Part shown: positions 14,772-32,185 of the stretch, in pieces
Position numbering within the stretch: position 1 is the stretch's first letter
Layout of the letters: each line of letters starts with the position of its first letter
Virus record (IMG/VR): IMGVR_UViG_3300038701_000460
Span: 1-32,304 of that record
Reading direction: 5' to 3' (one strand)
Source of the DNA: a virus
Length of the DNA: 32,304 nt
Made by a program: the position numbers and the translations under genes
The notes under the pieces: generated by a model
What the model was told of the DNA's origin: nothing
The model's database searches: none
The model's input: the letters and a program-made list of their open reading frames with translations, nothing else

Positions 14772-15308
14772 TTACACCACTAAACCAGCTTTCAACTGGA
14801 ACAATTCATACCAGTGTACCGGCATGTCGCCATAGCTTCGTTCCCAACTGATCCACTGATCCGCTGTGCTGTACACCATTGCACCACACTGATATGCGTC
14901 CAGACCGAGACCACAGCGTACGGTTTTCATCCATGAACCAGACGGACCGTATTTCTTCCTGAAGCCTCTGTGAGACTGTTTCAGACACATTAACTCGAAT
15001 ATCTGATACGGCATTGCCAGCTTACCACGCTCGACATCACGATATGTCTCTGTACCGAGGTGGAGCAGTCGGGACATTTTCTGTATTCCAATATCACGTT
15101 GTATACGAACGGCTTTAACTTGCTCCGCTGTGGGCGTGAGCGATTCCTGATATTCCATTGTGTAAAACGTACTGTGATACGACTCTAAAGTCCTACCTGA
15201 CTGTAACCATTTCATCCTCATGGTGTACATGTCCTTAGTGTTTACTTTTCCTAAATCTGGGTCATCAGGGAACTCATAATAACCGCTTTTTACTATGATT
15301 GTTGTCAT
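14772..15308 (-). CDS. Regulator-like protein with two HTH-like regions
   Basis: 178 residues from the ATG at 15308 (GGAG site). Two XRE-like helix-turn-helix regions can be read in tandem: about residues 55-105 (VKAVRIQRDIGIQKMSRLLH, then TETYRDVERGKL, a usual XRE ending) and about 130-175 (VRCGLGLDAYQCGAMVYSTA, then WISWERSYGDMP). Such a double-HTH protein could bind direct repeats. It is divergent from the recombinase/TerS genes; the region between contains a perfect 14-bp palindrome and several GTTTACT boxes, one of which (15240-15246) lies inside this gene and one (15314-15320) just before its start. So an autoregulator of the control region is likely, but repressor versus activator cannot be told. 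Confidence 0.5.
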   Translation of the reverse strand: MTTIIVKSGYYEFPDDPDLGKVNTKDMYTMRMKWLQSGRTLESYHSTFYTMEYQESLTPTAEQVKAVRIQRDIGIQKMSRLLHLGTETYRDVERGKLAMPYQIFELMCLKQSHRGFRKKYGPSGSWMKTVRCGLGLDAYQCGAMVYSTADQWISWERSYGDMPVHWYELFQLKAGLVV

Positions 15309-15790
15309 AAAGTGTTTACTCCATATAGTCACAGTTTATGTTTCTGACCGCGGTCAGGTATGTTTACTTATGTTATAATGACGGAGATGGCATTTCAACA
15401 TAATTTTTTAGCGGCCCGAAGCCCGAACATTCCCGTATGCGGGCACAGGTGCGGGCCTCTTACTGCCACAAGGGTTTGAGGGCAAAAGTAAACAGAAAAA
15501 GCCCGAACGCTTCCTATTCTGTTCCAGAATGCCCTATAACCGTTTACTTTACCCTCTCTCTCTCTCTTTTATATATATATTATTAGGGATATTAGGGAAG
15601 GTATAAGTAAAAGCCACGTGGTTACTGGCGGCCCGTACGATTCCATTTTCAGGGCTAGGTACGGGTAAGTACGGGCCAAATCGGATTACCAACTGTGAAA
15701 TCAATCACTTAGGTACGGGCTTCGGCGGTCAGGTACGGTGGAGGTGTTTCAAAGTGTTTACTGTGTCCAGCGTGTTCCAAAGTGTTTACT
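15240..15790. repeat. Array of seven GTTTACT / AGTAAAC boxes
   Basis: GTTTACT at 15240-15246, 15314-15320, 15362-15368, 15542-15548, 15756-15762 and 15784-15790, and the reverse (AGTAAAC) at 15487-15493. Seven copies in ~550 bp, far above chance in non-coding DNA. The same heptamer also occurs in the three module promoters (17154, 18442, 18765) and twice at 24460-24486. Longer shared contexts (AGTGTTTACTTTT at 15237 and 15782) suggest that flanks matter too. Confidence 0.6.
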
Positions 15791-16520: not shown

Positions 16521-16838
16521 ATGATAGGCAAAGGCAGAGCGACACCAGTTTTAAGAAGCGAACAAAAAAACATATTGAGGCAGTCAGTTGAGGCTAACAA
16601 CTCACTGGAACACATCTTCCATGTGATTAGTCGATTAGAAAATGAACTATTAGAGCCGCAAGAATTCGTACAAGCAAAAGCCGCACTGGACGCACGATTA
16701 AAGCTATTGAATAAATACTTACCGGATATGAAGAGTATCGACCCAAGCGGCCAAGTGGTACTACCCGCGCCGGTGGTGGTAGACGCGGAGCAGTACGAAA
16801 GTATGAGAAGAAGAATGCTAGACGTGGATGACTGTTAA
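16521..16838 (+). CDS. Terminase small subunit-like protein
   Basis: 105 residues from the ATG at 16521, with GAGG 9 nt upstream inside the recombinase end; the ATG at 16500 is poorly placed. The sequence is helical (NSLEHIFHVISRLENELLEP, then AKAALDARLKLLNKYLPDMK) and ends acidic (RRRMLDVDDC). The 'LEPQEF..AK..L.A.LKLLNKYLPD.K..D' phrase is the shape of TerS proteins from small phage families; no classical N-terminal HTH is evident. TerS binds the packaging site and hands the DNA to TerL, which is found 2.9 kb away at 19741. The call is moderate. Its stop shares TTAA with the stop of the opposite-strand gene at 16835. Confidence 0.45.
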   Translation: MIGKGRATPVLRSEQKNILRQSVEANNSLEHIFHVISRLENELLEPQEFVQAKAALDARLKLLNKYLPDMKSIDPSGQVVLPAPVVVDAEQYESMRRRMLDVDDC

Positions 16839-17083
16839 GAACAGTGTAATTTGTACGCTTGTTTAATTAATTCAAGCGTACTTTCGTGACCAAGCACTCC
16901 AAAAATTTCGACATTTATATCTGCGCATAATCCCCAGTCGTAACCACAGTCATTAAAATCAATAGTATCATCGTTGTTAGCACAACATTGAACATCATAT
17001 TCAATACCATCTATTTCAACAATAAAGTTAAAAAAACCCTCGCGTATACCATATTCTCCCACGCCTTCAAATTTAATTTTCAT
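16835..17083 (-). CDS. Small acidic protein of unknown function
   Basis: 82 residues, MKIKFEGVGEYGIREGFFNF onward, with a GAGGTG ribosome site. It is strongly acidic (NNDDTIDFNDCGYDWGLCAD) and has four Cys. No membrane segment, no recognised domain; a DNA-mimic-type inhibitor would be compatible with the charge but there is no further support. It is the only gene of transcription unit A, downstream of the first module (17119-17185), and converges on TerS-like. Confidence 0.55.
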   Translation of the reverse strand: MKIKFEGVGEYGIREGFFNFIVEIDGIEYDVQCCANNDDTIDFNDCGYDWGLCADINVEIFGVLGHESTLELIKQAYKLHCS

Positions 17084-17118: not shown

Positions 17119-17185
17119 CGTTTCGTTATTTGATGATTGCATCATGCGCTTAAAGTAAACGCTTGTATAGTCATTTTCGGACAAT
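17119..17185 (-). promoter_or_regulatory. Promoter/operator/leader module A
   Basis: Minus strand order: TTGTCCGAAAATGAC (17184-17170), -35 TATACA (17169-17164), 17-bp spacer containing GTTTACT, -10 CATGAT (17146-17141), then AACGAAACG (17127-17119) before the ribosome site of the 82-aa gene. The same layout is found at 18407-18473 and 18730-18807. The left end overlaps the last codons of the upstream gene. Confidence 0.65.
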
Positions 17186-17530
17186 ATGCGCGAATAACTC
17201 TTCAGTTAAACCACCGGCAAGACATTGGTCACGCAATGAATCGACGTGTTTGCTGCGCTTGCGATCTCGCAAGTAACCAAGCGGATTTCTACACGATAAC
17301 GTGACTTCAGCTATCAACCTATTGTGCAAATAAACACGTACCGCCGATGGATAACCAGCACGCCCACTGGTGTTACTAACTCGTACACCAGCGACAGCTA
17401 ACTCATGTTCGACACGCCCTTGATTGATGCGTGCCAGTGCCTCGGCCTCGGTGACATTGTGATCAGCTGCAATAGCCGTTACAGTCAGATAATTATTCAC
17501 ATAGTCCAGATAAAAGTCGCGATTATTCAT
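17171..17530 (-). CDS. Small protein of unknown function, last gene of unit B
   Basis: 119 residues, MNNRDFYLDYVNNYLTVTAI onward. The N-terminal helix pair with 'ADHNVTEAEALARINQGR' could be a small helix-turn-helix; the rest is basic and mixed (CRNPLGYLRDRKRSKHVDSL). No clear domain. Its stop lies in module A, where the shared sequence TTGTCCGAAAATGAC supplies the codons of IVRK and the stop, in a frame different from that used by the 88-aa gene (18452), so the element is conserved for DNA, not protein, reasons. The start overlaps the previous gene stop by 4 nt (coupled). Confidence 0.6.
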   Translation of the reverse strand: MNNRDFYLDYVNNYLTVTAIAADHNVTEAEALARINQGRVEHELAVAGVRVSNTSGRAGYPSAVRVYLHNRLIAEVTLSCRNPLGYLRDRKRSKHVDSLRDQCLAGGLTEELFAHIVRK

Positions 17531-17712
17531 ATGTTACCCTCTACCCTCTTTCTAATCAATTCGAGTGTTTCGCGTTCGCGCTTTTCAACCTGACAAGCAG
17601 CGTGTGCGGTGAACAACTTAGTATAATCCGAAGGTTTACCGCCGTATTTTTTCGCGCGTTCTTTAGCGCTTGGTGTTAAAATAATTTTTTTACCGCAGAT
17701 AGTACAATTCAT
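17527..17712 (-). CDS. Small zinc-finger-like protein
   Basis: 61 residues, MNCTICGKKIILTPSAKERA onward. CxxC (3-6) with a later His-x-x-Cys (HAAC, about residues 37-40) would bind one zinc; the C-terminal third is a charged helix (EKRERETLELIRKRVEG). Such tiny treble-clef-like proteins in early phage operons usually bind nucleic acid or act as antirestriction/transcription modifiers; nothing here is decisive. It begins behind GGGGGT and is coupled by ATGA overlap to the 29-aa ORF before and by 4 nt to the next gene. Confidence 0.6.
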   Translation of the reverse strand: MNCTICGKKIILTPSAKERAKKYGGKPSDYTKLFTAHAACQVEKRERETLELIRKRVEGNI

Positions 17713-17798
17713 GCGTTACCCCCTACCCACTTATAAAAGTGCGTTTCAGTCATTGGTTCATTTGATGGGTTCAATACTAACAATTCGCTTGCTTTCAT
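17709..17798 (-). CDS. 29-aa ORF between RadC-like and zinc-finger genes
   Basis: ATG at 17798, 2 nt after the RadC-like stop, reading MKASELLVLNPSNEPMTETH and ending WVGGNA. GAGG lies inside the end of the preceding gene, slightly far. It ends with an ATGA overlap with the 61-aa gene, the typical coupling of this operon, which is the main reason to believe it. No similarity recognised. Confidence 0.4.
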   Translation of the reverse strand: MKASELLVLNPSNEPMTETHFYKWVGGNA

Positions 17799-17800
17799 AT

Positions 17801-18238
17801 CTACAATAACCCTCTTTCAGCAAAGCTCATGCTATCCAGTTTTGAAACGATGAGATGATCAAGTAGCGCTATATCGAGAAGCCTGCAAGCGTCCTCAACG
17901 CGTTTAGTCAATTGTATATCCGCTTCACTCGGTTCAATTGATCCGCCAGGGTGGTTGTGACTGATAATAATCGCTTTAGCATTATTCAATAATGCGACTT
18001 TCACTATTTCACGCGGGTAAACGCTTGCACCATCAATGGTCCCAGTGAACATACGTTCCGCTTTGATTAGTTTGTGTTGAGTATCTAAAAAAGCAACCTC
18101 AAACACTTCCACCTCTTCAAAACCTATGCGTAGTCGAAAATAGTCTTTCGCGTCACAACATCGAGTGAATGACGCTTCACTTTTAATATACGTGTTTTCA
18201 ATTTCTTTAATCGCCGCTTTAATTAATTCTCTGTTCAT
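17801..18238 (-). CDS. RadC/JAB-MPN domain protein
   Basis: 145 residues, a full RadC-type domain. Metal site: Glu47 (FEVAFLDTQ), His94 and His96 (SHNHPGGS at 93-100), Asp107; the JAMM motif H-x-H-x(10)-D is intact. The N-terminal ~40 residues are charged and not the usual HhH of bacterial RadC, so this is the short plasmid/phage form (YeeS-like). The JAB fold suggests a metalloprotease-like or nuclease activity; RadC itself has no settled function. In phages it may act on host or defence proteins (inference). It is preceded by two tiny ORFs and followed by others, all in unit B. Confidence 0.8.
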   Translation of the reverse strand: MNRELIKAAIKEIENTYIKSEASFTRCCDAKDYFRLRIGFEEVEVFEVAFLDTQHKLIKAERMFTGTIDGASVYPREIVKVALLNNAKAIIISHNHPGGSIEPSEADIQLTKRVEDACRLLDIALLDHLIVSKLDSMSFAERGLL

Positions 18239-18239
18239 C

Positions 18240-18317
18240 TCACATCACCCCATTAACAATAAATTCTGCTGAAACAATCAGCACCAATACAAACAACATT
18301 TTTACATTGTCGCTCAT
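18240..18317 (-). CDS. 25-aa single-membrane-segment peptide
   Basis: ATG at 18317, behind GAGAGG with an 8-nt gap, encoding MSDNVKMLFVLVLIVSAEFI and ending VNGVM. Residues 7-20 are a hydrophobic helix long enough to span a membrane. It overlaps the previous ORF by ATGA (18314-18317) and ends just before the RadC-like start (18238). Candidate small membrane protein (holin-like, pump inhibitor or regulator of host protein); function unknown. Confidence 0.5.
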   Translation of the reverse strand: MSDNVKMLFVLVLIVSAEFIVNGVM

Positions 18318-18394
18318 GCGCCTAACCTCTCACTTATACTGTGGTCGATTGTATAACCAGCCCGAACACACAAATCAAAAATTGCAATTTCCAT
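18314..18394 (-). CDS. 26-aa ORF, first gene of unit B
   Basis: ATG at 18394 behind GGGGA, after the AACGAAACG box of module B. It reads MEIAIFDLCVRAGYTIDHSI and ends SERLGA, then overlaps the next ORF by ATGA. Could be a leader peptide controlling the rest of unit B or a real small protein. No similarity recognised. Confidence 0.4.
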   Translation of the reverse strand: MEIAIFDLCVRAGYTIDHSISERLGA

Positions 18395-18406
18395 AATTAA
18401 TGTCCC

Positions 18407-18473
18407 CGTTTCGTTATTTGATGATTCCATTATGCGCTCAAAGTAAACGGTTTACAAGTCATTTTCGGACAAT
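18407..18473 (-). promoter_or_regulatory. Promoter/operator/leader module B
   Basis: Minus strand: TTGTCCGAAAATGAC (18472-18458), -35 TTGTAA (18457-18452), 17-bp spacer, -10 CATAAT (18434-18429), AACGAAACG (18415-18407). The spacer has the perfect odd palindrome GTAAAC-C-GTTTAC (13 bp, 18443-18455), the cleanest operator candidate of the three modules. The -35 overlaps the TAA stop of the 88-aa gene. Confidence 0.7.
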
Positions 18474-18718
18474 TTTGCGTAGGTAGCAAATTGCTTTTTG
18501 ATGTCTGACAGATTAGAGAAATACTCGATCTTGGCTATTTTACCGCATGACAAACGGTAACCAACTTTATAGTCGCCAATAGCCAGGCGCTTGACTATAA
18601 CAGTCTTAACGCCGATAGCATTGTCGTACTTGTCGGAAGTGGCGCACATATACGGAACTAATACTGATTCTTCTTTTAGTAGCTTTGCTGTTAGCTTGCT
18701 GGCATTCAATGTTCTCAT
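18452..18718 (-). CDS. Small protein of unknown function (unit C)
   Basis: 88 residues from an ATG at 18718 behind GAGGG, MRTLNASKLTAKLLKEESVL onward; ends KLSENDL in module B DNA. It is basic with alternating hydrophobics (NAIGVKTVIVKRLAIGDYKV), a small mixed fold; no cysteine ribbon, no membrane segment. The pattern 'VLVPY..ATSD.Y...IGVKT.I.KRL.IGDY' hints at a beta-barrel RNA/DNA-binding protein, but I do not recognise the family. Its promoter is module C (18730-18807). Confidence 0.6.
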   Translation of the reverse strand: MRTLNASKLTAKLLKEESVLVPYMCATSDKYDNAIGVKTVIVKRLAIGDYKVGYRLSCGKIAKIEYFSNLSDIKKQFATYAKLSENDL

Positions 18719-18729
18719 GATGTTTCCCT

Positions 18730-18807
18730 CGTTTCGTTATTCGATGAGTCAATTATGCGCTTAAAGTAAACGCTTATCAACACTAATTTCGGTCATTTTC
18801 GGACAAA
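18730..18807 (-). promoter_or_regulatory. Promoter/operator/leader module C
   Basis: Minus strand: TTGTCCGAAAATGAC (18806-18792), a 12-bp stretch absent from the other modules, -35 TTGATA (18780-18775), 17-bp spacer with AAGCGTTTACTTTAAGCG, -10 CATAAT (18757-18752), AACGAAACG (18738-18730). Best -35/-10 pair of the three, so probably the strongest. Confidence 0.7.
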
Positions 18808-18878
18808 TTACACTCATAAGCAGATAGTAACGATAACTGTATATAGATAGTGTGAATTACCAGGACGATCGGTACCAG

Positions 18879-18938
18879 CCAGATTGCCAGATTGCCAGAT
18901 TGCCAGATTGCCAGATTGCCAGATTGCCAGATTGCCAG
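18879..18938. repeat. Octamer tandem array (CCAGATTG)x7
   Basis: Seven perfect copies starting at 18879, 18887, 18895, 18903, 18911, 18919 and 18927, plus a partial CCAG. The unit is not a multiple of three. It lies in the non-coding stretch between module C and the HNH gene. It may be an iteron array or a terminase/replication protein binding site, or simply a slippage-grown repeat. Confidence 0.85.
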
Positions 18939-19042
18939 CGGGTCGTTAAAAATCAACAACTTAGCTTGATCTGGATCAACTCGAACCAAAAAACCGGACT
19001 TCAATCCTCGGGTGCACGAAACCAGAAAACCCCTCCCGTACC

Positions 19043-21444: not shown

Positions 21445-21674
21445 ATTAACCTCGCTTTCGGCAATGACGCGTCGATCTGAATGTCATGCACAACGTAGTC
21501 ACGCTGGTCGCCGATACGGTCTAACTGGCACAGTCCAACATTCACACTGTGGATATTTAACCCCGTGGATTGATGCAATTCGCTGAGTTTACCTTGAATC
21601 TGATCGACCACTGCGAGAAATATCTCTCGTTCACACGCCCTGATTGCATCGCTTAACTCTTGTGCTTTACTCAT
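21441..21674 (-). CDS. Small protein of unknown function (helical)
   Basis: 77 residues, MSKAQELSDAIRACEREIFL onward: an amphipathic helical N-terminal half followed by mixed strand (LNIHSVNVGLCQLDRIGDQR, DYVVHDIQIDA). Proteins of this shape (an N-terminal 'EL.DAI..CE..I...V...I...L..L...TGL.I..V.V' phrase) recur in early phage regions without known role. Coupled at both ends by 4-nt overlaps (start with the Tad2-like stop, stop with the next start). Confidence 0.55.
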   Translation of the reverse strand: MSKAQELSDAIRACEREIFLAVVDQIQGKLSELHQSTGLNIHSVNVGLCQLDRIGDQRDYVVHDIQIDASLPKARLI

Positions 21675-22069
21675 ATTAACCTCGCTTTACCGTTGTTTAA
21701 TTTCTGTACGGTGGACTCCAATTTATTCCGACGACTCTCAGGAAAATATGTAGCATTCATGACACGTAGATTCTGCGTTGAATCCACGTAATATTCCTCA
21801 TCGTCATACACTATGAATAAATTATGTTCACCCCATTGGAATTCGTAATCACTGGTTAACTCGATCTCTTCGACGTAAGGTCGCCAGTTATATTGACTCA
21901 TTTCTGACGAATTGACCCCACGTGATGCGCAACCGTTGTCGTTGTCGATAACCATGATTATTAACCCGTGATCATTCATGTGAATGGTTTTACCGTCTCT
22001 CCACTCAGGTAAATGATACGGTTTGTTTCGGTTCTTGCGCATTTCCGCTAATGCTTCTTCAAATTTCAT
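21671..22069 (-). CDS. Tad2-like (DUF2829) protein, candidate anti-defence sponge
   Basis: 132 residues. The opening MKFEEALAEMRKNRNKPYHL is the DUF2829/Tad2 pattern (FEEAL..M..GK...RP.W), followed by HMNDHGLIIMVIDNDNG and YNWRPYVEEIELTSDYEFQW. Tad2 proteins bind and sequester cyclic-ADPR-type and some cyclic nucleotide signals made by Thoeris and CBASS defence (established knowledge); whether this one does is inference. It is longer than the ~80-110 residue core, with a ~35-residue C-terminal extension of unknown role. First real gene of the operon: promoter at 22163-22191 and a 20-aa leader ORF coupled to its ATG (ATGA). Confidence 0.55.
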   Translation of the reverse strand: MKFEEALAEMRKNRNKPYHLPEWRDGKTIHMNDHGLIIMVIDNDNGCASRGVNSSEMSQYNWRPYVEEIELTSDYEFQWGEHNLFIVYDDEEYYVDSTQNLRVMNATYFPESRRNKLESTVQKLNNGKARLI

Positions 22070-22128
22070 AACACTTTGCTCCCGCTCTGAGCATTGCCGT
22101 GACCTGTTCTCATTATTGTAGGATTCAT
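22066..22128 (-). CDS. 20-aa leader peptide before the Tad2-like gene
   Basis: ATG at 22128, 9 nt behind GGAG (part of AACGAAACGGAG), encoding MNPTIMRTGHGNAQSGSKVL, stop TGA overlapping the ATG of the Tad2-like gene. Excellent ribosome site and perfect ATGA coupling suggest a translated leader that sets the translation of the anti-defence candidate. Confidence 0.5.
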   Translation of the reverse strand: MNPTIMRTGHGNAQSGSKVL

Positions 22129-23441: not shown

Positions 23442-23748
23442 ACCATGTCACCTCGCTAACTTCGTCACACATGTTCACTATGACCTGCTCAATACCTTTT
23501 TCATCGGTGGTGATGAATGTATCGTCTGATTCAGGATGGTGCCAAAACAACAACACCGGCACATCTCGCTCACCTCTCGTATAAGCCGCATAAGCGTTAT
23601 GCAACTCCATGTGATCAGGCGTGAGATTAGCAATCGTTCTGATTCGATCCGCTTCAGTAGAACCTGCACGGTACACACTTGGATCGTCTGACATGTGGTA
23701 GAACCAATCATGTTGAATCATTAGTCGATGGAATTCACTGAGTTTCAT
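23422..23748 (-). CDS. Phage protein of unknown function
   Basis: 108 residues, MKLSEFHRLMIQHDWFYHMS onward, with DDPSVYRAGSTEADRIRTIA, then LHNAYAAYTRGERD and a hydrophobic segment PVLLFWHHP. The 'HDW.Y.MSDDP.V...G..E..R...IA' phrase is widespread in phage early regions beside DUF2829 proteins; no function is known to me. Soluble, no cysteine ribbon. Starts with a 4-nt overlap on the Tad2-like gene. Confidence 0.6.
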   Translation of the reverse strand: MKLSEFHRLMIQHDWFYHMSDDPSVYRAGSTEADRIRTIANLTPDHMELHNAYAAYTRGERDVPVLLFWHHPESDDTFITTDEKGIEQVIVNMCDEVSEVTWYEMRRA

Positions 23749-24263
23749 AATACGACTCTCCCGCTGTTGAGGTCTTTACAGAGTTGTTCTGCTACACGCT
23801 TGGGCATGAGAATTGTGTCTGGTAACTGGTGTCCTAGAGGTACAGTAGTCCACACCCATATTCCATTGTGAAAAATCTTCGCGTTACATTCCTCAGCAGG
23901 GTCGCTATGCTCATCCACATAAGCCAACAGTCGGTTAAACGTGCGCATTTTGTCGCGGGCGGCTTCGGCTTGTTCTTTGCTTGATCGCTCACTACCAAAC
24001 TGGCTCCATGCTGGACTTCGAGTGCTTGGGAAAATAGTGCCGTCACCGCCTATACACCAATAACCACCTTTTGGTTCCCACTCTTGTTCTTCGTAGATTT
24101 CCCAGTCATTATCTAGGATGTTATCAAGCATTCCCCCAAAATCGATCCCGTCTTCATCAATGAAGGTGTTTCTTTCTATGCACACGTAACAACCTTTTCG
24201 CCATCTCGGAAGTCTAACCTTCTTACCTTCCCGCATAGCGGTCAACGCTTCTTCAAATTTCAT
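23745..24263 (-). CDS. Tad2-like (DUF2829) protein with C-terminal extension, second copy
   Basis: 172 residues. N-terminal ~62 residues are a good DUF2829/Tad2 pattern: MKFEEALTAMREGKKVRLPR, WRKGCYVCIERNTF, then MLDNILDNDWEIYEEQ. The C-terminal ~110 residues are a separate module: YWCIGGDGTIFPSTRSPAWS, then KEQAEAARDKMRTFNRLLAY and VDEHSDPAEE, known from many phage hypothetical proteins. So it is a fusion. The first part would be the signal-sequestering part if it acts like Tad2 (inference). Overlaps both neighbours by 4 nt. Paralogous to the 21671..22069 gene by its start (MKFEEAL..M) but much diverged. Confidence 0.6.
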   Translation of the reverse strand: MKFEEALTAMREGKKVRLPRWRKGCYVCIERNTFIDEDGIDFGGMLDNILDNDWEIYEEQEWEPKGGYWCIGGDGTIFPSTRSPAWSQFGSERSSKEQAEAARDKMRTFNRLLAYVDEHSDPAEECNAKIFHNGIWVWTTVPLGHQLPDTILMPKRVAEQLCKDLNSGRVVL

Positions 24264-24457
24264 GACTCAATTATCTCCACTATCTGTTTAATTCTTGTGT
24301 GAGCACGTTGCTTACTTACACCCAAATCTTTCAGTCTCACACCTTCAACCAGATAACGTAAAACTACCATCTGGTTTTCATGCGTGATCCGTGTTTTACA
24401 CATGGCACTCATAACCGTTTCATAGTCATACTTGCCACAGTGATAAATTAGTTTCAT
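24260..24457 (-). CDS. KorA/TrfB-like HTH regulator (candidate)
   Basis: 65 residues, MKLIYHCGKYDYETVMSAMC onward. Residues ~37-59 (VEGVRLKDLGVSKQRAHTRI) form a helix-turn-helix of the KorA/TrfB type (a 'V..G...DLGVSKQR.H.RIK.I' recognition helix). KorA represses plasmid genes by binding a GTTTAG/CTAAAC dyad (established knowledge). Here a GTTTAC/GTAAAC pair lies directly before the gene (24460-24465 and 24481-24486) and downstream of its -10, so negative autoregulation is likely (inference). First gene of a long operon (down to ~22194). The ribosome site is GAGGAG. Confidence 0.5.
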   Translation of the reverse strand: MKLIYHCGKYDYETVMSAMCKTRITHENQMVVLRYLVEGVRLKDLGVSKQRAHTRIKQIVEIIES

Positions 24458-24459
24458 CC

Positions 24460-24515
24460 GTTTACTCCTCTGTCCAGTTAGTAAACAGTTTATTCTATGT
24501 TGCCGTACTTGTCAA
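24460..24515 (-). promoter_or_regulatory. Promoter and GTTTAC operator of the KorA-like operon
   Basis: Minus strand: TTGACA (24515-24510), 17-bp spacer, TAAACT (24492-24487), then GTTTAC (24486-24481) and GTAAAC (24465-24460), an inverted pair 15 bp apart across the start of transcription. The promoter lies over the end of the primase gene. Confidence 0.6.
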
Positions 24516-26817: not shown

Positions 26818-27318
26818 TTACCCCGCTAAGAATTCGAGTGCTTTTTGCTTCACTTCTTGATCGGCTTTCTTCGCTTGCTTGTCATTGCTCGCCAGCCCTT
26901 GAGCAACGATTTCGTGAATTCCTTTCTTGACAGCGGTTCGCATGATGTCACGTTTAAGTTGTGTCATTGTGGAGAAATAGCGACTCACCAATCCTTCGCT
27001 GGTGCCAGCTAATTTTGCGATTTGAGCGCGAGTGATGTTCTGATAGCCTACATCTTTCGACACTTCAATGGCAACATTTAAAATCTGTGTGCGCCGTAAA
27101 TCTGGATTAGCGCGGTTCGTTTTAGCAGGATGGTCAAACCCTTCGTCACCGACATCACCGACAATGCTGTTCACAAATCTGGTGAACGTGCAGCCCATAA
27201 TGTTCGGGAACGACCCCACAGGAATGCCCACTTCGGCGCACAGTGTTTCCCTTGTAAGGTTGATTAAACCGTGTTCTTTCGCTAACTCGATTGCTCGCGA
27301 CCTAATTACATCTTTCAT
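26818..27318 (-). CDS. TetR-like protein with two N-terminal HTH domains
   Basis: 166 residues. Two TetR-N-like units in tandem: residues ~5-50 (AIELAKEHGLINLTRETLCA, then GIPVGSFPNIM) and ~75-125 (ILNVAIEVSKDVGYQNITRA, then TSEGLVSRYFSTMTQLKRDI). The second has the full 'Q.A...G.S.G.VS.YF.TM.QL...IM' form. There is no ligand-binding C-terminal domain, only a Lys/Ala-rich tail. Thus it may bind DNA constitutively, as a replication-initiator accessory or repressor; it sits directly before the primase. Promoter candidate at 27354-27382. Confidence 0.65.
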   Translation of the reverse strand: MKDVIRSRAIELAKEHGLINLTRETLCAEVGIPVGSFPNIMGCTFTRFVNSIVGDVGDEGFDHPAKTNRANPDLRRTQILNVAIEVSKDVGYQNITRAQIAKLAGTSEGLVSRYFSTMTQLKRDIMRTAVKKGIHEIVAQGLASNDKQAKKADQEVKQKALEFLAG

Positions 27319-29567: not shown

Positions 29568-30269
29568 ATGGAACTCACACTGAAAGATTTAACACCTGAA
29601 CAAGTTATCAAGATCGCTGAATTTATGCGAGGTGATACGGTTACACCATTGAATGAACCCACGCAAGATGAAGTTAAAGCGGTGACTGATTCAATACCGG
29701 ACGCAACACCTGAGCTAGTTGAACCGACCGCTGCGGAAGTGTTCACGCAGGAAGTATTAACCGAACCTGAAGTACCAGCAACCGAGCCCGAGCCTGTTAC
29801 ACCAGCACCAGACGACAACGGTCTTGATGCGGCTGGTATTCCTTGGGACGAGCGTATTCACAGTAGTAGCAAGGCTAAAACCGTGAAAGGCGTTTGGAAG
29901 AAACGTAAAGGTTTACAGGCTCACATTTACGATGCTGTCATGGCCGAACTCACTGGTAAACCAGCACCAGCACCAGCACCAGCACCAGCACCAGCACCAG
30001 CACCAGCACCAGCACCAGCACCAGCACCAGCACCAGCACCAGCAGACAACGTGGTCACAATGGCTGCTCCTGCTCCGGCTGAACCCGTGGCTGAACCTGC
30101 TCCGGCTGGACTAACGTTGCCTGAAATTATGATGCGTGTAACCAGCGGCCAAGTTGATCAGGCGACAGTCATGAACACGTTAGCTAAACACGGACTTAAA
30201 TCTATCGCCATGCTCGGTGCGCGACCTGATTTAATTCCTGTGATCAGCAAGGAGTTATTCAATGAGTGA
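29568..30269 (+). CDS. Pro/Ala-rich phage protein (repeat-linker type)
   Basis: 233 residues, start at 29568 behind GAGGT. N-terminal ~85 residues are acidic and Thr/Glu-rich; residues ~85-120 hold DAAGIPWDERIHSSSKAKTV followed by KGVWKKRKGLQ, a phrase that recurs in phage recombination/ssb operons; then a Pro-Ala run (14 PA from a hexanucleotide array), then a compact C-terminal ~55 residues (LTLPEIMMRVTSGQVDQATV). It resembles a two-domain adaptor joined by a long flexible linker. It overlaps the DUF2800 start by 8 nt. Role unknown, probably in DNA replication/recombination with the next two genes. Confidence 0.65.
   Translation: MELTLKDLTPEQVIKIAEFMRGDTVTPLNEPTQDEVKAVTDSIPDATPELVEPTAAEVFTQEVLTEPEVPATEPEPVTPAPDDNGLDAAGIPWDERIHSSSKAKTVKGVWKKRKGLQAHIYDAVMAELTGKPAPAPAPAPAPAPAPAPAPAPAPAPAPADNVVTMAAPAPAEPVAEPAPAGLTLPEIMMRVTSGQVDQATVMNTLAKHGLKSIAMLGARPDLIPVISKELFNE
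29961..30044 (+). repeat. (CCAGCA)x14 coding repeat
   Basis: Fourteen consecutive hexamers give a Pro-Ala linker of 28 residues. Perfect copies imply recent slippage and length variation between relatives. Confidence 0.9.
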
Positions 30270-31347: not shown

Positions 31348-32185
31348 CATTTTAATCACAGGGCGTCTGGTAGGTGGTCATCCAATGAAGCGCAACGCTG
31401 TTATTGATGAAAAAACCAAACAACCTAAGATGCAGCACGACGGTATTACACCACGTGTGAATAGTTACATCGGCGTGGCAATTCCCAAGAACGGTGAAGC
31501 ACACTGGAAAGATACTGAATGGGGTGCGCAAATATGGGCAATCGGTGCAGCAGATTGGCCGAATGGCGAATATAACGCGCCATCGTTCGCATGGAAAATT
31601 GTGGATGGCGATAGCGCCATACCAAACAAAGCAGGTAATAAACCATGTGACCGTGAGGGCTACCCTGGCCATTGGATCATCAATGCTCAAACGGAACTAG
31701 GCATCAAGTGTTTCCACGCTGGTAAGTATGATCCGCATCAACAAATCCAGAACGAAAACGAGATCAAACCAGGTGATTATTGCCGAGTGCTAATGAACGT
31801 GAAGGGTAATAACCCGTCACAGTCGCCAGGTGTTTATATTAATCCCGTAATGTTTGAGTTAAGCCGCGCGGGTGTTGAGATCGTCTTGTCTAATGGACCA
31901 AGTGCTGAAAGTGTATTTGGTGGTTCACAGGCGCAGTTGCCGCAGAATGCGGCTGTCGATCCTAACGCTGCTCCGGCACCAGCGGCACCAGCGGCACCAG
32001 CGGCACCAGCGGCACCAGCGGCACCAGCGGCACCAGCGGCACCAGCGGCACCAGCGGCACCAGCGGCACCAGCGTACGACATGGTTACGCCGCCGAAGAC
32101 TTATAACGTCGGCGGACAAATGTTCACCTGGGATCAACTGAAAGGTGCGGGTTTGACTGACGAGCAAATAGCTGCACTAGGTTGA
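31340..32185 (+). CDS. DUF2815 ssDNA-binding-like protein
   Basis: 281 residues from the ATG at 31340 (GAGGT site); upstream in-frame ATG at 31244 is not used by this argument. The first ~200 residues match the DUF2815 form (NSYIGVAIPKNGEAHWKDTE, then YCRVLMNVKGNNPSQSPGVY, INPVMFEL), an OB-like ssDNA-binding fold. Then a low-complexity Ala-Ala-Pro linker made from an 11-copy nonamer, then a conserved C-terminal tail (KTYNVGGQMFTWDQLKGAGL). Tails like this in SSBs bind partners. Shares operon with DUF2800. An accessory to replication/recombination. Confidence 0.8.
   Translation: MSDILITGRLVGGHPMKRNAVIDEKTKQPKMQHDGITPRVNSYIGVAIPKNGEAHWKDTEWGAQIWAIGAADWPNGEYNAPSFAWKIVDGDSAIPNKAGNKPCDREGYPGHWIINAQTELGIKCFHAGKYDPHQQIQNENEIKPGDYCRVLMNVKGNNPSQSPGVYINPVMFELSRAGVEIVLSNGPSAESVFGGSQAQLPQNAAVDPNAAPAPAAPAAPAAPAAPAAPAAPAAPAAPAAPAAPAYDMVTPPKTYNVGGQMFTWDQLKGAGLTDEQIAALG
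31975..32073 (+). repeat. (GGCACCAGC)x11 coding repeat
   Basis: Eleven nonamers in register, encoding the Ala-Pro-Ala linker of the ssb-like protein. Perfect copies, one every 9 bp. Together with (CCAGCA)x14, shows strong local repeat growth in this operon. Confidence 0.9.

Follow-up and report, generated by a model that had tools for sequence, protein, structure and literature searches.

Three minus-strand intergenic regions of the window (the whole 32,304-nt stretch analyzed, positions 1 to 32,304 of virus record IMGVR_UViG_3300038701_000460) carry copies of a single composite regulatory cassette. All three copies lie where a sequence-only reading of this DNA had located them, and its view of them as a repeated regulatory cassette for small accessory genes is well supported by the repeats and by conservation in a related phage, G001; its further suggestion that the cassette genes are silenced together is plausible. 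The explanation that we favor as a whole, with moderate confidence, is that of an activator-dependent cassette repressible by a protein with a predicted KorA fold.

Anatomy of the cassette and its cargo

Each cassette (~67 bp; n = 3 in the window) runs on the minus strand from the box TTGTCCGAAAATGAC across a segment that varies and holds a weak −35 into CGTTTACTTTRAGCGCATRAT, which includes the terminal −10, and then into the leader. The copies and the adjoining genes are the following.

17184–17119, minus strand: cassette A
17170–17184, minus strand: box A, shared with the final codons and the stop of the 119-aa gene; kept in G001 at 41533–41547
17141–17161, minus strand: promoter core A, GTTTACT plus −10 CATGAT, with the conserved core pattern
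17119–17140, minus strand: leader A, ATCATCAAATAACGAAACG
18472–18407, minus strand: cassette B
18458–18472, minus strand: box B, within the 3′ end of the 88-aa gene but read in a different frame from box A
18443–18455, minus strand: perfect dyad GTAAAC-C-GTTTAC of copy B
18429–18449, minus strand: promoter core B, −10 CATAAT
18407–18428, minus strand: leader B, followed by a 26-aa ORF (MEIAIFDLCV...), a 25-aa hydrophobic ORF, and radC
18806–18730, minus strand: cassette C
18792–18806, minus strand: box C, 11 bp more upstream than in A and B
18752–18772, minus strand: promoter core C, −35 TTGATA and −10 CATAAT
18730–18751, minus strand: leader C
16835–17083, minus strand: 82-aa acidic protein encoded downstream of copy A, pI 4.15, without a family match
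17171–17530, minus strand: 119-aa gene with a 72% identical orthologue in G001
17527–17712, minus strand: 61-aa protein of family phrog_8738
17801–18238, minus strand: RadC-like JAB-domain protein (Pfam PF04002, 1.8e-41)
18452–18718, minus strand: 88-aa gene between C and B, without a family match

The box is identical at 15/15 positions in A, B, and C, and its sole further match in the window has 3 mismatches. The 20-base core GTTTACTTTRAGCGCATRAT has three exact matches in the window, where 0.01 would be expected by chance even with ≤3 mismatches allowed, and the leader end AATAACGAAACG is the same in all three copies. At a 17-nt spacer, the −35 hexamers are TATACA in A, TTGTAA in B, and TTGATA in C, matching TTGACA at 4, 4, and 5 of 6 positions, respectively (2 and 4 in the G001 modules G1 and G2 described below). 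Of the layout that the sequence-only reading had proposed for the three regions, the box and the segment from about −27 to −7 are conserved, and the box has an equal position in A and B, whereas the −35s are weak, variable, and not conserved, and the box of C lies 11 bp farther from the −10. Only B and C among the three copies pass a simple sigma-70 scan, and a sigma-70 consensus scan of the region gave promoter sites not above the number in shuffled sequence. An Rfam search returned no match. The palindrome GCGTTTA-CTT-TAAGCGC fits A and C, not B, G1, or G2, and was set aside.

The left element overlaps the ends of two genes in different frames, as had been claimed: it reads ATT GTC CGA AAA TGA (I-V-R-K-stop) in the 119-aa gene and is contained in TTG TCC GAA AAT GAC TTG TAA (L-S-E-N-D-L-stop) in the 88-aa gene; box C is non-coding. 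The cargo behind B is a short operon including RadC, and a comparison of the scanned A–C cargo proteins with PADLOC families gave only a weak JAB match (RadC). Just upstream of copy C lies a tandem GCCAGATT array (18870–18946), and at the matching place in G001 (L008 ~1575–1690) the short array has another repeat, similar to GACCTGGAC. Coding sequence at 29962–30062 and 31974–32083 contains long CACCAG and GCACCAGCG repeats.

Conservation and cargo exchange in a related phage

G001 (IMG/VR 3300038701_000394; 49,887 bp), the sole close relative found, is collinear with much of the window. The surrounding genes are ~70–80% identical at the DNA level, with protein identities of 92% for the terminase, 72% for the 772-aa primase, 66–68% for the KorA-like protein, and 59–60% for the HTH protein. 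Loss of the box in relatives with conserved genes had been named beforehand as grounds for refutation, and the outcome favors the cassette: in G001 the box is kept at two orthologous copies, G1 and G2, with the box intact in each and one extra box besides. G1, like A, comes after the 119-aa gene, whose orthologues are 72% identical, whereas G2 (−10 CATACT) is located beside the short-repeat array, ahead of a 26-aa ORF, and has two boxes 21 bp apart, the second matching at 14/15. Across the five modules of the two phages, a comparison of two genomes and hence of one divergence, the box is 15/15 in each and 18/21 core positions are invariant.

Measured from the box end to the start of the −10, the spacing is 23 nt in A and B, 24 nt in G1, 34 nt in C, and 23 and 44 nt for the two boxes of G2. 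Relative to the A/B reference, the differences of 0, 1, 11, and 21 bp approximate whole helical turns (0, 1, or 2); by our own rough estimate, the joint chance of the 11- and 21-bp spacings is ~0.1, and common ancestry links C with the distal G2 box. This spacing is suggestive of an activator that would bind on one face of the DNA. In addition, the five box-bearing codons at the end of the 119-aa gene (stop included) are identical in both phages, compared with 40/87 identical among the same-residue codons of the gene overall, which is a weak sign that the box itself may be constrained; the box recurs in other contexts.

Between its array and the 26-aa ORF, G001 has one cassette fewer than the window and no 88-aa gene. 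Because the upstream flank of G2 matches that of C (GTAATTTGTCCGAAAATGACCGA) and the ORF downstream of G2 resembles the one after B, the extra cassette and the 88-aa gene were either gained in the window or lost in G001. Gain or loss between two copies is what would be expected if recent duplication or recombination had copied the cassettes as plain promoters together with their genes, in the manner of morons, with conservation reflecting ancestry and promoter constraint and with no dedicated regulator involved. The cassette matches also have sharp edges (from the box to AACGAAACG), and the leaders resemble one another more closely inside the window than across the two phages, both in keeping with such copying. 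Nevertheless, we regard this explanation as unlikely, given that the box is invariant despite the varying −35 and spacer next to it, that its spacing stays in helical phase, and that GTTTACT recurs in unrelated intergenic regions and in the KorA-like promoter.

The orthologous A/G1 cassette has different downstream cargo in each phage, an 82-aa protein in the window and one of 189 to 208 aa in G001 (L004 1269–1892). The 82-aa protein had no match when searched in G001, and the two cargos are without detectable similarity. Because the cargo differs, gene exchange takes place at the cassette, which would also be compatible with a different role of the box, as an additional operator or as the target of some other process, for example, cassette recombination that shuffles accessory genes. 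We consider such a role of the box highly unlikely, since its phase and orientation relative to the −10 suit transcription control and an invariant 15-mer is unnecessary for homologous recombination. Both cargo proteins are strongly acidic (pI 4.15 and about 4.07) and are possible DNA mimics.

Beyond the two phages, a search of the viral contig collection for the box together with GTTTAC matched only G001, and the 22 genome-contig matches to the same pattern were judged to be chance, the remaining core being absent from their contexts. A looser core pattern was found in 11 other viral contigs, all without the box. Another 24 viral contigs and 2 named phages with a related primase, represented by stretches around the primase rather than whole genomes, contained no further strong cassette match. 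A TetR_N-type HTH protein is encoded upstream of the primase (26818–27318) and is conserved in G001; Shewanella phage SppYZU01 and Klebsiella phage JD001 have similarly annotated genes close to the primase.

The GTTTACT element and its candidate binding proteins

The features considered in this section are listed below.

24260–24457, minus strand: 65-aa DNA-binding protein of predicted KorA/ArdK/FocB fold, candidate repressor (AlphaFold2 pLDDT 88; Foldseek; VIA-align)
24481–24493, minus strand: ATAAAC-T-GTTTAC dyad covering the −10 in the promoter of the KorA-like gene (TTGACA-17-TAAACT); kept in G001
24460–24466, minus strand: AGTAAAC, inverted relative to 24480–24486 and adjoining the ribosome-binding site of the KorA-like gene
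14772–15308, minus strand: 178-aa HTH protein, weakly XRE/VC1465 family-like, alternative regulator candidate
15240–15790: seven GTTTACT elements (15240, 15314, 15362, 15487, 15542, 15756, 15784), from the HTH gene to the serine recombinase gene

GTTTACT occurs 14 times in the window versus 4.4 expected. According to a hand-drawn coding map in which some gene boundaries are uncertain, 11 of the sites are non-coding versus 0.45 expected, and 8 lie outside the modules versus 0.5. Counterparts of window sites are found in G001 at 38850, 39236, and 47019. The longer sequence DTAAACNGTTTAN is present without mismatch only in module B, G1, the KorA-like promoters of both phages, and at G001 38843. 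The dyad of B is perfect, as the sequence-only reading had stated; its placement between the −35 and −10 holds in that the upstream spacer is covered, but the 3′ part of the −35 is covered as well. B and G1 are the only modules with a good dyad; pairing is poor in the other three of the five (A, 2/6; C, 3/6; G2, 4/6).

The KorA-like promoter reads TTGACA-17-TAAACTGTTTACT in both phages, the TTGACA and TAAACTGTTTACT being identical and the spacer diverged. Its −35 is perfect and it has no box, whereas the box-bearing modules have weak −35s. Because the sites are enriched and the one over the KorA-like −10 is kept in both phages, the role of GTTTACT as a putative common operator is supported. 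G001 has a further promoter-like TTGACA-17-TAAACTGTTTCG at 36177, close to the KorA-like promoter, ahead of a rightward ORF; the operator-like part is absent from the matching region of the window.

The 65-aa protein has a KorA-type helical HTH DNA-binding domain according to AlphaFold2, Foldseek, and VIA. Its top Foldseek matches are KorA–operator complexes (probability 1.00, TM about 0.75, E-values > 0.01), and the VIA Z-scores are 8–9 for KorA (57–60 residues), 9.8 for FocB, and 7 for ArdK; the fold common to the protein and KorA is a widespread HTH. Comparison with Pfam and PDB sequences gave no KorA match and one unrelated PDB match (E 0.13). KorA is 101 aa long; the phage protein ends with the recognition helix and is devoid of the C-terminal dimerization domain, which could be compatible with many half-sites. 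Based on an alignment made by eye, we take the equivalents of the KorA operator contacts to be S48, K49, Q50, T54, and Q58. In this alignment Q53 of KorA is not kept and, because the contact residues differ, the DNA specificity should differ from that of KorA. The contacts in KorA are T47, R48, G49, Q53, and R57, of which Q53 is the key base-reading residue (PMC4889941). Known KorA proteins recognize inverted repeats located at the −10 and regulate a number of promoters, that of their own gene among them (PMC9723621, PMC3937220). The candidate operator at the phage protein's own promoter is a dyad over the −10, kept in both phages. Searches for more relatives of the KorA-like or HTH protein returned only G001, and two weak matches to the former turned up among 395 genomes belonging to a single bacterial order, one of them judged chance on inspection.

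The same cassette could instead be controlled through GTTTACT by the 178-aa HTH protein, acting as an immunity-type or Aca-like repressor. This protein is weakly XRE-like and 60% conserved in G001, and seven GTTTACT elements lie within or just upstream of its gene in the window. Yet only two of the seven (15542 and 15756) have G001 counterparts, and the element at 15362, upstream of the HTH gene, is GTTGACT in G001 (AGTCAAC for AGTAAAC), so that autoregulation through this site would not be conserved. The best-conserved site is that in the KorA-like promoter, not at the HTH gene. Regulation by the HTH protein is thus improbable in our view, and the KorA-like protein fits better as the putative GTTTACT binder, because its own promoter site is conserved and the HTH-upstream site is changed in G001. 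The structural model of the HTH protein (pLDDT 54) was too poor for a fold search.

Relation to known systems and biological implications

Under the favored explanation, A, B, and C would represent a single composite, regulated promoter of the sigma-70 type that the phage uses repeatedly to drive leftward accessory genes. The box (about −36 to −50 in A and B) would serve as the site of an activator whose contact with RNA polymerase, made from the upstream side, compensates for the weak −35. GTTTACT (about −26 to −20) would be an operator core shared with the gene for the 65-aa KorA-fold protein, where it covers the −10. Most likely, that protein acts as a repressor of its own promoter and, less strongly, of the cassettes, so that the accessory genes may be expressed in an early burst and then shut down as it accumulates.

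Regulatory cassettes that phages reuse are a known kind of system, and so are KorA/ArdK networks. As in the KorA/ArdK networks of the conjugative plasmids RP4 and R388, a small HTH protein, here with the corresponding predicted fold, is combined with one candidate site that is present at its own promoter and at other accessory promoters. ArdK controls several plasmid-maintenance promoters, including those of ardC and its own gene (PMC3937220), and the KorA operator GTTTAGCTAAAC likewise has a GTTTA half-site (PMC2680271). In contrast, the phage protein consists of the DNA-binding domain only, the half-sites point outward (GTAAAC-N-GTTTAC), a separate box lies upstream, and the carrier is a tailed phage. 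The cassette also resembles the SAS/ESAS of Cluster K mycobacteriophages, repeated asymmetric elements located upstream of many small genes of various families and conserved among relatives (PMC3203893), in being a repeated element ahead of differing small phage genes; however, SAS are found at translation starts, whereas the repeated unit here is an entire putative promoter that includes a box upstream, an operator element, and a leader. In Cluster A mycobacteriophages, stoperators are scattered asymmetric phage-repressor sites (PMC9283540); unlike these, the sites studied here occur in promoters and intergenic DNA instead of being distributed across transcription units.

The resemblance to acr–aca operons lies in a small HTH protein that would be expected to act as the repressor of its own operon, with a borderline Tad2-like gene (23745–24263; 25.3 bits versus a cut-off of 25) overlapping the KorA-like gene, but the cassettes lie about 6–7 kb away from the regulator gene. 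No Aca family in the libraries searched gave a match, and no acr gene was identified. Genes 23745–24263 and 21671–22069 start alike (MKFEEAL...; 24232–24266 and 22038–22072), suggesting related N-termini.

More tentatively, we consider it possible, if doubtful, that in a tailed phage a minimal KorA-fold protein without a dimerization domain exerts global control over a regulon of swappable accessory genes, together with an activator box that is phage-specific and helically phased; any gene behind the cassette would then fall under one infection-timed switch. If the favored explanation is right, the cassette would provide a sequence tag for co-regulated accessory genes, possibly with counter-defence functions, in this phage lineage, and plasmid-type KorA regulation would be operating in a tailed phage. 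The cassette may also guide the way to fast-changing genes, the A/G1 promoter having been kept while its cargo was swapped, one very acidic protein for another.
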